Made by a program: the position numbers and the translations under genes. The notes beneath the pieces are model-generated. The model was not told the DNA's origin. It saw only the letters and a program-made list of their open reading frames with translations, and did not search any database. DNA of 56,094 nucleotides from positions 1 to 56,094 of IMG/VR virus record IMGVR_UViG_3300027499_000663. One strand, written 5' to 3'. The DNA comes from a virus. Shown here piece by piece: positions 12,089 to 15,984 of the stretch. The first letter of the stretch is position 1. The number at the start of each line of letters is the position of its first letter.

Positions 12089-12340
12089 TCAGGCTTCGCA
12101 ATACTCTCGCCACCCGATCCGGACGGTGTCGCCGTCCAGGTGCTCAATACGCACTCCGCTCGTGTCCTCGATTTCTTGGATCACCTGGCGCCAGGCCTCG
12201 GGGCTTTCATCGTCGTTGCGCGCGACGGTGATGACTTGGACCTTTTGAACGCCGGGCGCAGTAATAAGGCGCTGGATACGCCGACCCACCAATTCATAGG
12301 ATTCTCGGGAAGGCGCTACGGGTGACGCGATTTTGTGCAT
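12089..12340 (-). CDS. DUF1654 protein, SOS-regulated
   Basis: An 83-aa protein with SYELVGRRIQRLITAPGVQKVQVITVARNDDESPEAW, the core of DUF1654, a family found mainly in Pseudomonas and its prophages. Its function is not established. An AGGAG ribosome site precedes the ATG. The promoter overlaps an almost perfect LexA box (12360-12379), so it should be expressed on DNA damage independently of CI. It stands alone between two terminators. A role in SOS response or prophage induction is inferred. Confidence 0.9.
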   Translation of the reverse strand: MHKIASPVAPSRESYELVGRRIQRLITAPGVQKVQVITVARNDDESPEAWRQVIQEIEDTSGVRIEHLDGDTVRIGWREYCEA

Positions 12341-12359
12341 GGGAAACGCTCCTTGCTTT

Positions 12360-12402
12360 TACTGGATAAACATACAGTATTGGTCCTGTAATATTTTGAC
12401 AA
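12360..12402 (-). promoter_or_regulatory. LexA box within the DUF1654 promoter
   Basis: TACTGGATAAACATACAGTA at 12360-12379 differs from the TACTGTATATATATACAGTA consensus at three spacer positions. On the minus strand the -35 is TTGTCA (12397-12402) and the -10 is TACTGT (12374-12379), 17 bp apart, so LexA would cover the -10. The box ends about 20 bp before the ATG. Confidence 0.85.
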
Positions 12403-12464
12403 GAGGGGAGCTACTCAGCCTTTCGGATATGTAAACAATTCGCACATATCTTTTGTATGGACAC

Positions 12465-12488
12465 AAAAAAGCCCGCGGGCGGCGGGCT
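12465..12488 (-). terminator. Terminator of the lipoprotein gene
   Basis: Stem GCCCGC (12471-12476) / GCGGGC (12482-12487), with a six-base T-run on the minus strand (12465-12470), 18 bp past the stop of the lipoprotein gene. Confidence 0.85.
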
Positions 12489-12505
12489 CGAACTTTCAAT
12501 CTAGG

Positions 12506-13021
12506 CTAGTCGGAAAACTTTATTTCAGTAGAAAGGGCCTGTCTGGAAATCTCATAAGCGGACTGTGCTTGGGTATCCGCAGTACTGAATGTGCTCATAG
12601 TCAAAAGGTAGGCATTCCACTTCGTATACAAGTCTTTACTTAGCTCAGCCTGCTTTGCTGGGGGCTTAGCTGTCTTGAGGCGGGCGACGGCTTGGTCGCC
12701 CTCCGAGCGAGCGTGCTTGATGCAGGTTAAGAATGAATCCCCGTATTCCTGAGCTCTCTGTCTTGCACCGATTCGCCGCATTTGAAATCCAGAAGATGCT
12801 TCAAGCCCGCACTGCCACGCAGCCAAGTCTAACTGGCGTGAAAAGTTCATGGCTTCGGGAGATTTTGAGTCATATTTAAATTCGATGGGCTTGAATACGT
12901 GAGGCTCAATCTTTTCCACTGGAACGGTAGGTTGAACTGCTTGTGTTGTTGCGGGTGGAGTAGCGCAACCAGACAGCGCCGAAACGGCAAAAATAGCGAC
13001 GGCAAAGTAACTTAACTTCAA
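12506..13021 (-). CDS. Predicted lipoprotein, lysogenic accessory gene
   Basis: A 171-aa protein with a signal peptide and lipobox (LKLSYFAVAIFAVSALSGCATPP), so it should be lipidated at the Cys and anchored in the envelope. The mature part is helical and charged, with two further Cys. I use the TTG at 13021, eight bases after GGAGG; an in-frame start at 13060 would bury the signal peptide. It has its own terminator and sits between PL and the repressor, where lambda carries rex, so expression in the lysogen is likely. Surface or superinfection exclusion is possible but not shown. Confidence 0.7.
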   Translation of the reverse strand: MKLSYFAVAIFAVSALSGCATPPATTQAVQPTVPVEKIEPHVFKPIEFKYDSKSPEAMNFSRQLDLAAWQCGLEASSGFQMRRIGARQRAQEYGDSFLTCIKHARSEGDQAVARLKTAKPPAKQAELSKDLYTKWNAYLLTMSTFSTADTQAQSAYEISRQALSTEIKFSD

Positions 13022-13153
13022 GGTGGATCCCTCCCATGATTGAGGCCACGACTTTACCATTCGTGGCGCACAGCCACCATTGATCTGAAGGTACAGAGGG
13101 ATGTTCTGGGCGCCATGATACGGTGAACTCCACTACGCAAAGGAGCGCCTGCA

Positions 13154-13309
13154 ATGAAGCTACCCGAAAGCTACAAGGTCAATGGCTACACCGTAATGAA
13201 GGTGGGCGACGGCTGGGAGGTGGCGAATAGCGATGACCACCTGGGTGGCCCGTTCGATCGTGAAGAGGACGCAGTAGAGGCCGCAAAGGCGTTGCCGCCG
13301 AAGGGGTAG
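13154..13309 (+). CDS. Small hypothetical protein, 51 aa
   Basis: MKLPESYKVNGYTVMKVGDGWEVANSDDHLGGPFDREEDAVEAAKALPPKG: a compact beta-beta-alpha protein with good codon structure and AGGAG eight bases upstream. It is the only plus-strand gene between PL and cro. The WEV...GPFDREEDAVEAA pattern is familiar from small Pseudomonas proteins, but I cannot name a function. Confidence 0.65.
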   Translation: MKLPESYKVNGYTVMKVGDGWEVANSDDHLGGPFDREEDAVEAAKALPPKG

Positions 13310-13424
13310 GGAAGGCCAGAAAAGAAAAGTCCGACGCTAGGCCGGGCTCTCTGTAGATGGGCCAAATACCTTTGACCGGCTTCACTGGTGGGTGTAACGA
13401 ATGAATACTCATGATGTGAAGGAT

Positions 13425-13814
13425 CTAAGTTTCGGATGAAGGCGGGCTGATGGGGGTGATTTGATATCCGGTCGCTTTACCATGATCATCGCGCACTGTC
13501 TGCAAGGATGCTTGGAGCCTCTCCATCCGCACACGGGTAGCGGCTTTAAAGTCATCTGACGCCATTTTGTCGGCCAGGTCAGCTTTACAGATCTTGATTG
13601 ATGCCTTCAAGTCCGCGATCTTCCTGGTTAACTCCGCCGGATCATCCGTACGAATGTAAACCTTCAGTAGCCAGATAGAAATGTATGGGCTTAACAGCCC
13701 GGTTATAGCCATTAGCACCTGCGTGGCTCCGGCACTATCAGCAAGGGGGGCAAGTACAATTGCCAGTGCATTCAGAAGGCTAGTTGCAAGAGCCATGAAC
13801 ATGTTGTTTTTCAT
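13425..13814 (-). CDS. Membrane protein of AT-rich cassette (third gene)
   Basis: A 129-aa protein with two N-terminal membrane helices (about 7-24 and 31-52: LATSLLNALAIVLAPLA and LMAITGLLSPYISIWLLKVYI). A long charged coiled-coil-like cytoplasmic tail follows (ADLKASIKICKADLADKM...RMERLQASLQTVRDDHGKA). It overlaps the gene upstream by four bases, so it is co-translated with it. Not recognised. Last gene of a cassette whose composition differs from the phage around it. Confidence 0.65.
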   Translation of the reverse strand: MKNNMFMALATSLLNALAIVLAPLADSAGATQVLMAITGLLSPYISIWLLKVYIRTDDPAELTRKIADLKASIKICKADLADKMASDDFKAATRVRMERLQASLQTVRDDHGKATGYQITPISPPSSET

Positions 13815-14065
13815 AGGCTACCACCTAACATCTTAGCGTCGACCTCGGAGATCCTTTTAAGGGTTCTTTTTCTTAAAAATGATCCGCTCAATAGATAGCT
13901 TTCAGTTTTCTCATCTTCCGTTTTATATTGGATTATTACTTCGCGCGGAAAAATTGAATAAGATATGTGCCGTACTACCTTTCTGGTAAATATGAAAATC
14001 AGTGGAAATCCACAAATTAATACGCCCCATCCAAGTGCTTGCGCTATAAGCTCACCAGTCCACAT
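13811..14065 (-). CDS. Small membrane protein of AT-rich cassette (second gene)
   Basis: An 84-aa protein with one or two membrane helices (LIAQALGWGVLICGFPLIFIFTRK), then a basic juxtamembrane section and a short soluble domain (REVIIQYKTEDEKTESYLLSGSFLRKRTLK). I chose the ATG at 14065, with GGAGG five bases before it; an ATG at 14077 lies just outside that site. It is coupled to the gene downstream. No family recognised. Confidence 0.6.
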   Translation of the reverse strand: MWTGELIAQALGWGVLICGFPLIFIFTRKVVRHISYSIFPREVIIQYKTEDEKTESYLLSGSFLRKRTLKRISEVDAKMLGGSL

Positions 14066-14093
14066 CTGTGCCTCCATTCCGGATCGTTAGCTG

Positions 14094-14945
14094 TTAGCCG
14101 GAGACTTTTAATATAGCATAAGATGTTCTTGTTCCACTAAGGTCTGTTACATCTTTCTTTTGTATTTCAACATTGTATGATTTGTCTTTTTGAAAGGCTT
14201 CTTCGTTGGCAGCGATTTTCTGCATGAACTCATCATCTAGAATAGTTACAGCAGCCTCAAAGCCGTCTTCACTTGCAATGCTCCATCCCCGACGACCTTT
14301 AAAGTTTAGCTTGGTAAATTTAATGATTTTTAGTATTGTTGTTGTTTCAATTTTTTCCGTAAGATCAGTTTTTAGCGGCTTGAAATTCGCTATTTCAGGT
14401 TCTTGAAGGGTGACGATGGAATCTGATGAGATAAAAGATATCTTAGGATTATCCTTCCCTTGCATTGGCCCTTGGATCACAGCATGTAGAGCCTGTCGCA
14501 CTTCTTTGCTAGATATAAGTTGAGCAACATCGCTACTGGTTTCAATTTCCTCTCCATCGACCGTTACAATGGCCGTTTTTTCTTGAGCGTTAATAAATAC
14601 GCGATCTATTTTTTTGTCTTTGATGCGATCTATGATTCCAATCGCTGAGCCAGATGCTGCAAACGCTGCGCCACCAATAATTCCAATAGATTTTAGTACG
14701 GTAACGGTCGTCAACGGGTCGGCAAATATGGAGTAAATAATCTCCAATGAGCCCTCGACCGCTGGCGCTACTACACTAAGGCTTGCTTCTGATGAACCAT
14801 TGCTAACAATTTTTGCAGATTTTGTTATTAGGTCATCCATGCCGATTATTGCAGCTCCAAGATCCTTTGCCTTAATCTGGTGGTGCTCCAAATCGCCGGT
14901 GGCGTCATAAGAGATTTTAAACTCTGTTACAATTTTATCGCTCAC
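14094..14945 (-). CDS. Uncharacterised 283-aa protein of AT-rich cassette (first gene)
   Basis: Strongly AT-rich gene in a GC-rich phage. The N-terminal section (KISYDATGDLEHHQIKAKDLGAAIIGMDDLITKSAKIVSNG) leads to strands (EASLSVVAPAVEGSLEII) and then a hydrophobic hairpin (TVLKSIGIIGGAAFAASGSAIGIIDRIK, about 80-107). A beta-rich C-terminal part ends SYNVEIQKKDVTDLSGTRTSYAILKVSG. This order (strand-helix domain, GS motif, glycine-rich membrane-active hairpin, beta tail) is reminiscent of phage and bacterial proteins of unknown function, and I cannot place it. With the two membrane proteins downstream it looks like a three-component envelope-acting system. Confidence 0.6.
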   Translation of the reverse strand: MSDKIVTEFKISYDATGDLEHHQIKAKDLGAAIIGMDDLITKSAKIVSNGSSEASLSVVAPAVEGSLEIIYSIFADPLTTVTVLKSIGIIGGAAFAASGSAIGIIDRIKDKKIDRVFINAQEKTAIVTVDGEEIETSSDVAQLISSKEVRQALHAVIQGPMQGKDNPKISFISSDSIVTLQEPEIANFKPLKTDLTEKIETTTILKIIKFTKLNFKGRRGWSIASEDGFEAAVTILDDEFMQKIAANEEAFQKDKSYNVEIQKKDVTDLSGTRTSYAILKVSG

Positions 14946-15101
14946 AAAAAAAACTCCCCATATTTAAAAGTGGTGGGAGGGGCGGCAACTACATCAATGG
15001 CCATCCCTGCCAATTATCATGTTTTATACGAAACCGTTTGTTATCGGGCTAAATAAATAAGCTCTATTCATTTATTATCCACCCTTGAGTGGACGATCCG
15101 C

Positions 15102-15314
15102 TCATTTCTTAATGTCTTCCGCATATCCCGCCAACTCGTCCTCATACTCCTTAAAACGGGCTGTGATCTTCAGAAAATCTTGGGCGTCAGCATCTTGCCC
15201 GGTTTCAGAAAATTTTCCGGCCGCCTGCATTAGATCGACGCCTGACCATTTGAGCAGGTCGGCGGCTTGTTTCAGCTCACACCGCATCTCTTGGTCGGGC
15301 TTGGTGAGGGGCAT
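15102..15314 (-). CDS. Small acidic protein downstream of repressor
   Basis: A 70-aa helical protein (MPLTKPDQEMRCELKQAADLLKWSGVDLMQAAGKFSE...) that begins 16 bp after the repressor stop and should share the PRM transcript, so it is likely made in the lysogen like lambda rex. The ATG at 15314 has GGAATCGAAG in front. A longer in-frame start (15395) would overlap the repressor gene. Function unknown. The 155 bp downstream (14946-15101) show no gene. Confidence 0.6.
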   Translation of the reverse strand: MPLTKPDQEMRCELKQAADLLKWSGVDLMQAAGKFSETGQDADAQDFLKITARFKEYEDELAGYAEDIKK

Positions 15315-15330
15315 CTTCGATTCCAAAGGG

Positions 15331-15984
15331 TCAAAACTTCTGAAGTGCCCGGACGACAACACCAACGATCCGGCAATCCTCGGTGAACGGTTCAATTCGC
15401 CAGGCTGGATTCAGCGGTTTCAGGAAGAGTTTCCCGCCGTCATTGACCAGCTTCTTGAAGGTCGCCTCATTGCTATCCGGCAGTTTGGCGATCACTAGCT
15501 TGCCTGGGGTCGCCTCGGATTCTGTATCCACCAGGATCAGCGTGCCTTCTGTGATGCTTTGCCCGACAGGCGAGGTCATCGAATCCCCTTTGACCTCTAG
15601 CCAAAACGCTGGGCCCTTCGAGTCGTATTCGGAGAATTCGTAGCGATCGGAAAAGCCGGCCGGGTAGGGCTCGACTGCCTCGGCCCAGGCGCCCGCGGCG
15701 ACCCAGCTGATAACCGGATAGCGGAAAGACTCTACTGGCTGCCGGGCTTCGCCGACATTTGATTCTGAGGCTTCACGCTCACCTCCCTCGCCGATCGCAA
15801 GCCATTCAGGTCTGAACCCGGTCGCTTTTGCCAGTGCGTAAAGGTTCTCGGGCCGAAGGCTTTTGCTTTCCCCCGAAATCCATTGAGTGACGGCCGAATT
15901 TGCGACGCCGCAAAGCGCCGCGATTTCGCCTTTCTTTTTCCCGCTGAGCTTGATGGCTCGTGCAATACGTTCGTGTCTTTCCAT
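15331..15984 (-). CDS. cI: CI-type phage repressor, S24 autopeptidase
   Basis: A 217-aa lysogeny repressor. The N-terminal helix-turn-helix (about 15-40: GEIAALCGVANSAVTQWISGE) is followed by a linker and a LexA/S24 peptidase domain. Predicted self-cleavage is at Ala97-Gly98 (VAAGAW), with catalytic Ser135 (GDSMTSP) and Lys177 (ATFKKL). RecA filaments should stimulate cleavage and induce the prophage. It is transcribed leftward from between the right operators, which carry the same 14-bp dyad found at PL. The ATG is close to the operators and has only a weak ribosome site. Confidence 0.93.
   Translation of the reverse strand: MERHERIARAIKLSGKKKGEIAALCGVANSAVTQWISGESKSLRPENLYALAKATGFRPEWLAIGEGGEREASESNVGEARQPVESFRYPVISWVAAGAWAEAVEPYPAGFSDRYEFSEYDSKGPAFWLEVKGDSMTSPVGQSITEGTLILVDTESEATPGKLVIAKLPDSNEATFKKLVNDGGKLFLKPLNPAWRIEPFTEDCRIVGVVVRALQKF

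Follow-up and report, generated by a model that had tools for sequence, protein, structure and literature searches.

A mobile three-gene cargo module behind the CI-type repressor of a phage with a Pseudomonas-type host, with a probable role in abortive infection

The gp29-gp30 system of the mycobacteriophage MichelleMyBell (MMB) consists of a toxic protein and a putative membrane protein (PMC11856565) and acts in an abortive-type manner, with adsorption and injection of the incoming phage proceeding (PMC6426606). An abortive model involving membrane depolarisation has been put forward for RexAB, Sbash gp30/gp31 and CarolAnn gp44/gp43 (PMC6426596, PMC6426606), in which a soluble protein and its membrane partner are encoded near, or coexpressed with, the repressor. 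At the level of the single gene, PDC-S42 has been listed as a phage defence candidate through 'guilt by embedding' (PMC10855318). The PDC families of PADLOC are candidates only; a literature search on PDC-S42, DUF7946 and the LAPAL protein family gave no result, and the papers searched contained no test of PDC-S42.

The window, i.e. the whole stretch of 56,094 nucleotides that was analysed (IMG/VR record IMGVR_UViG_3300027499_000663), belongs to a phage with a Pseudomonas-type host. Three minus-strand genes behind CI had been described in the original prediction, and the ORF positions bear this out: gene A (14094–14945; GTG start, 283 aa), gene B (13811–14065; 84 aa) and gene C (13425–13814; 129 aa). 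For gene B, the mechanical ORF list gave 88 aa from an upstream ATG; the MW.. codon start is found in every close relative. Genes B and C share 4 nt (ATGA), an overlap consistent with the translational coupling proposed for them. The gene of the CI-type repressor (HTH_3 and Peptidase_S24; 15331–15984) precedes the cassette and shares its strand. The predicted position behind CI is right, but a small gene that went unmentioned, encoding a 70-aa protein of phrog_6388 (15102–15314, minus strand), intervenes between CI and A; 16 of 80 related phages have a homologue of it in the corresponding place.

At a scale of 1.5 kb, the AT content of the window is highest at 13.4–15.0 kb, with 0.95% of all 1521-bp intervals being equally low in GC. 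The claim of a markedly lower GC holds for A (40.6%) and B (40.1% as the 88-aa ORF, 39.2% as the 84-aa gene), but for C the difference is merely mild (50.5% against 57.7% for the window); the cassette as a whole has 43%. In ten of eleven relatives the cassette is likewise AT-rich compared to its surroundings. A possible weak hairpin, CTCCC...GGGAG (14954–14979, minus strand), would cover the GGGGAG ribosome-binding site of A and is followed by T8 and the GTG start. Similar CCCC...GGGG pairings precede A in L001, L003, L004 and L007; these are weak and look conserved in the closest relatives, which is suggestive only of a conserved hairpin covering this site. A terminator-like site lies 80 bp after C (13331–13345, minus strand), although the region holds no more such sites than expected by chance. 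In the CI–A interval of the window, neither a strong promoter nor a strong terminator was found, but scan counts were at chance level, and co-transcription of CI and A, though considered, is therefore not claimed.

None of the three proteins had been recognised from sequence alone. This stands for B and C, for which no family match was obtained in the libraries searched, but not for A, which has a homologue in gp29 and fits the PDC-S42 model of PADLOC over its whole length (E 5.5e-29, 99.6 bits, residues 7–281 of 283). Protein A also matched PHROG 3243 (phrog_3243, E 1.7e-54) and, well above the curated cut-off, NCBIfam NF053583 (LAPAL_fam; 180.7 bits against 60), with a weak match to DUF7946. 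Clear homology to a housekeeping family, which had been named as grounds for rejecting a defence role, was found for none of the three. A holin match of A (phrog_35009, 0.04) was regarded as chance, and a PDB sequence search with A gave no match. An AlphaFold2 model of A built from 16 sequences was usable (pLDDT 82, pTM 0.74) and consists of an alpha/beta N-domain, a Gly-rich hairpin modelled with the lowest confidence and a beta-rich C-domain. Protein A is predicted to comprise a ferredoxin-like N-domain, a Gly-rich hydrophobic hairpin (approximately residues 77–108) and an OB-like C-domain. The PDB fold search gave no match below 1e-3, the best being OB-fold proteins (eIF5A, Rim1 SSB, RPA) and ferredoxin-like pieces; in a viral structure library the model had four matches below 1e-3, including an uncharacterised protein of mycobacteriophage Pipsqueaks.

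Protein B has one N-terminal transmembrane (TM) helix with an invariant proline, followed by a small soluble beta tail. Protein C has a two-TM hairpin and a cytosolic helical hairpin or coiled coil; its model, of fair quality (pLDDT 69), shows four helices, two of them long and hydrophobic and the others forming the helical hairpin. The hydrophobic segments originally noted in the three proteins were thus all found. A PDB sequence search with C returned only weak CrcB and Lon matches (E 0.013 and worse), which were read as hydrophobic and coiled-coil composition, and a Phage_scaffold match (0.2) was taken as chance.

MMB gp29 (KF986246, 310 aa) aligns over its full length with the A family of the three-gene loci, as does BaxterFox gp31. 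In the profile–profile comparison of the A family with these two proteins, the probability was 98% (E 1.7e-13, 270 columns, 19% identity), and the A4 HMM scored 46 bits against gp29. The A protein of a Vibrio phage (L069) had been labelled 'MMB_gp29_gp30__gp29' by its depositors. Both systems are carried by prophages, and in both A or gp29 is followed by genes for small membrane proteins. For gp30, a 67-aa two-TM protein, no homology was detectable with the B and C profiles (probability <1%), and the parallel with MMB is therefore confined to A, at about 19% identity; the two-TM hairpin shared by gp30 and C is analogous only. The MMB system has two genes and an actinobacterial host group, whereas three genes are conserved here in Pseudomonadota, the B gene and the cytosolic helical domain of C being extra. 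PDC-S42 differs in being listed as a single gene whose best-scoring members stand alone, whereas in the clade of the window A is always accompanied by B and C. The RexAB and Sbash type is likewise encoded immediately after the repressor gene and on its strand; it has a four-TM RexB-like partner, whereas B has one TM helix and C two. No DUF4747-like match was found for A in Pfam at E up to 1, nor was homology to systems of this type found.

Genes A, B and C are one unit. At all 25 loci with a triad-type A gene that were examined, some of them duplicates of one another, B-type and C-type genes are next in order and usually overlap. The original prediction had stated that absence of co-occurrence elsewhere would speak against it, and A, B and C were found together repeatedly. 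In IMG/VR, three independent phages carry them in the same order, with identities to the proteins of the window of 74–80% (L001/L002), 52–63% (L003) and 64–69% (L004); their repressors differ in length and sequence, and only that of L003 is clearly related to the CI of the window (61%). A version on Pseudomonas megaplasmids has an A protein of only 30% identity, followed by an 84-aa one-TM protein and a 139-aa two-TM coiled-coil protein. Matches to the PDC-S42 model were obtained in 7 of 349 genomes of Pseudomonas and in 20 of 398 of Pseudomonadota, many of the latter matches being partial or weak. The C profile matched six of the 349 Pseudomonas genomes, exactly those in which A is full-length, and did so at the loci of A; the seventh A match (G067) is weak and partial. 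Pairwise distances of the three proteins are correlated (r 0.94–0.96, permutation p ~0.0005). Where synonymous changes were unsaturated, dN/dS was 0.02–0.04 for A, 0.09–0.11 for B and 0.03–0.09 for C, and all three genes are therefore under purifying selection. Given this selection and the recurring gene order in many independent loci, the arrangement is not due to chance.

Profile comparisons linked the B and C proteins of the window, P2, plasmid and island clades at up to 98%, some pairs being weak; the B alignment of the window clade contains one wrong-frame member (L054), which makes the B scores conservative. The B and C proteins of L056–L058 match in size, order and TM pattern only, with no profile-supported homology. 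As a negative control, B or C was found beside none of the five best-scoring, canonical stand-alone PDC-S42 proteins (L020–L024). Searches of an annotated phage collection with A and C by tblastn gave nothing at E 0.01, and neither a second viral scan with the alignment nor scans with the A proteins of L010 and L024 found new loci.

The unit was found on several kinds of mobile element. Lambdoid-type Pseudomonas prophages with unrelated repressors carry it (the window, L001, L003, L004, L007, L051, L052 and L054); in the window and seven other lambdoid-type loci it follows the repressor gene directly and in the same orientation, and exceptions exist. P2-like prophages have it between the repressor and tail gene D (L008, L044–L050). 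In L008 and L046–L048, strong terminator-like hairpins separate the repressor gene from A, and the triad is probably transcribed there as a unit of its own; in view of these hairpins, co-transcription with the repressor is not general, a point against the proposal made below. The P2-like prophage L044 has extra genes between the repressor and the triad, suggesting stacked cargo; their products of 171 and 273 aa have a start predicted to be zinc-ribbon-like or membrane-type. Megaplasmids of Pseudomonas carry the unit as well, and 29 Pseudomonas plasmid records were counted. On chromosomal islands, the unit adjoins a type III restriction subunit (L010) or an Eco57I-type methylase with a BsuBI/PstI restriction endonuclease (L053), both confirmed with Pfam, and is accompanied by a tyrosine integrase in L057. 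The integrase label and most phage-gene labels come from reading of the sequence rather than from family searches. The tectivirus-like Vibrio phage L069 carries A-B-C-like genes.

The Mu-like or myovirus-like late regions of L056 and L058 have the triad within tail and head gene clusters. In L058, a Mu-like element, the triad is followed, at +1529 to +2682 from the A start, by two further genes, inserted between head genes, whose products of 172 and 212 aa have hydrophobic segments. The placement of these two triads in late clusters, and not in a lysogenic operon, counts against a defence role, as does the NCBI name of NF053583, 'LAPAL motif-containing putative phage structural protein'. Both would fit proteins of structural or late phage function, and the score of A against that family is high. 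However, A is encoded among structural genes at L056 and L058 only; other copies are found in repressor regions, where they occupy the lysogenic strand, and on plasmids and islands that lack structural genes, B and C have TM helices, and the carriers include phages of unrelated morphotypes, among them a tectivirus-like one. A structural role is therefore highly improbable. The name was rejected on genomic context, and it looks misleading for the family, many members of which are on plasmids or islands without structural genes.

The survey of the site behind CI covered 80 viral contigs that encode the closest relatives of this repressor, and 71 of these contigs show the flanking 83-aa gene. In the window this conserved gene (12089–12340, minus strand) forms the far border of the interval at 12341–15330. 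Between CI and the 83-aa gene, 30 of the 71 sites are empty (122–321 bp) and 41 are filled (1.0–4.7 kb). The cargo is very diverse, with 71 clusters from 126 ORFs and many without a recognised family; A, B and C are absent from all 71 related-phage sites surveyed. Ten representative cargo genes, picked by eye as promising and hence not a random sample, were scanned; at the threshold applied, PADLOC gave no match for two of them. Among the clearest matches, the cargo of L091 matched RmrA (2.4e-148), that of L107 includes a PD-Lambda-5_B-like N6 methylase (1.2e-109) adjoining an AAA ATPase, that of L094 a C5 methylase adjoining an AAA ATPase, and that of L100 a weak PD-Lambda-5_A-like gene. Matches to generic AAA and methylase families carry little weight as evidence, and the RmrA and PD-Lambda-5_B matches are stronger. 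The site is a cargo hotspot that includes defence genes of known type, in agreement with the earlier suggestion that such genes occupy this location in other prophages. It should also be noted that the hotspot of the window contains a gene for a predicted 184-aa lipoprotein (lipobox LSGCA; 12506–13060, minus strand), a candidate exclusion lipoprotein, and that lipoprotein-like cargo was seen in other filled sites, e.g., L099, L140 and L150.

Such surroundings also bear on the main alternative, superinfection exclusion at the envelope, in which B and C, with A bound underneath, would alter the inner membrane or the injection channel so that phage DNA is kept out without cell death. Genes for small membrane proteins located behind a repressor are the classic type of exclusion gene, and the presence of the lipoprotein gene in the same hotspot fits with this reading. 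Charlie gp32, a membrane protein, blocks DNA injection (PMC6426606), and exclusion genes of Pseudomonas phages adjoin the repressor (PMC9936078). However, of the homologues whose phenotype has been reported, the best is MMB gp29, part of an abortive system that lets injection go ahead, and a simple injection block needs no large conserved cytosolic protein with an OB-like domain; exclusion is accordingly unlikely. The toxicity described for gp29 (PMC11856565) and the carriage of the module by plasmids and prophages could also point to a toxin–antitoxin or a plasmid or prophage maintenance system, with A as a toxin restrained by B and C and defence at most a by-product. No unstable cytosolic antitoxin is seen, three genes with two integral membrane partners are present, and the unit is associated with restriction systems and a defence hotspot. 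These points make a maintenance role quite improbable, and that reading overlaps in any case with abortive infection.

On balance, A-B-C is probably a mobile three-gene anti-phage module, carried as cargo of the repressor-linked, lysogenic region, and its most likely mode of action is abortive infection at the inner membrane. Protein A is regarded as the likely effector because gp29 is reported to be toxic, and the membrane as the likely site of action because of the TM partners and the hydrophobic hairpin of A. In this proposal, modelled on those for RexAB and Sbash gp30/31, A would be a cytosolic or peripheral protein with its OB-like domain and Gly-rich hairpin, serving as the infection-responsive toxic component, and B, with its single TM helix and soluble tail, and C, with its two TM helices and cytosolic helical hairpin, would be its membrane partners. 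The genes are expected to be expressed in the lysogen, and B and C may keep A inactive or may form the membrane lesion together with it. Infection by another phage would then switch the complex, membrane function would be damaged and phage production would stop. A more far-reaching and rather doubtful idea is that of a membrane-attack immunity class, in which a latent membrane-inserting Gly-rich hairpin of A would be held by B and C at the inner membrane until a nucleic-acid or phage-protein signal on the OB-like domain led to a pore, the device being common to tailed phages, tectivirus-like proviruses, plasmids and chromosomal islands.

The A family was already known from candidate lists, together with one distantly related published system. 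The libraries and literature searched contain no description of the three-gene make-up, of genes B and C, of their strict linkage, of the spread over unrelated mobile elements or of the hotspot. Three conflicting database labels, namely a single-gene defence candidate, a 'phage structural protein' and an unknown PHROG, thus refer to the same component of a three-gene unit that is conserved and is related to an abortive-infection system of a mycobacteriophage on which little work has been done. For this clade, single-gene screens of PDC-S42 would miss the partners B and C. At 1.5 kb the unit is compact, and it is portable; it occurs in Pseudomonas prophages and in large plasmids that also bear resistance genes, while the hotspot behind CI is a source of further defence candidates.
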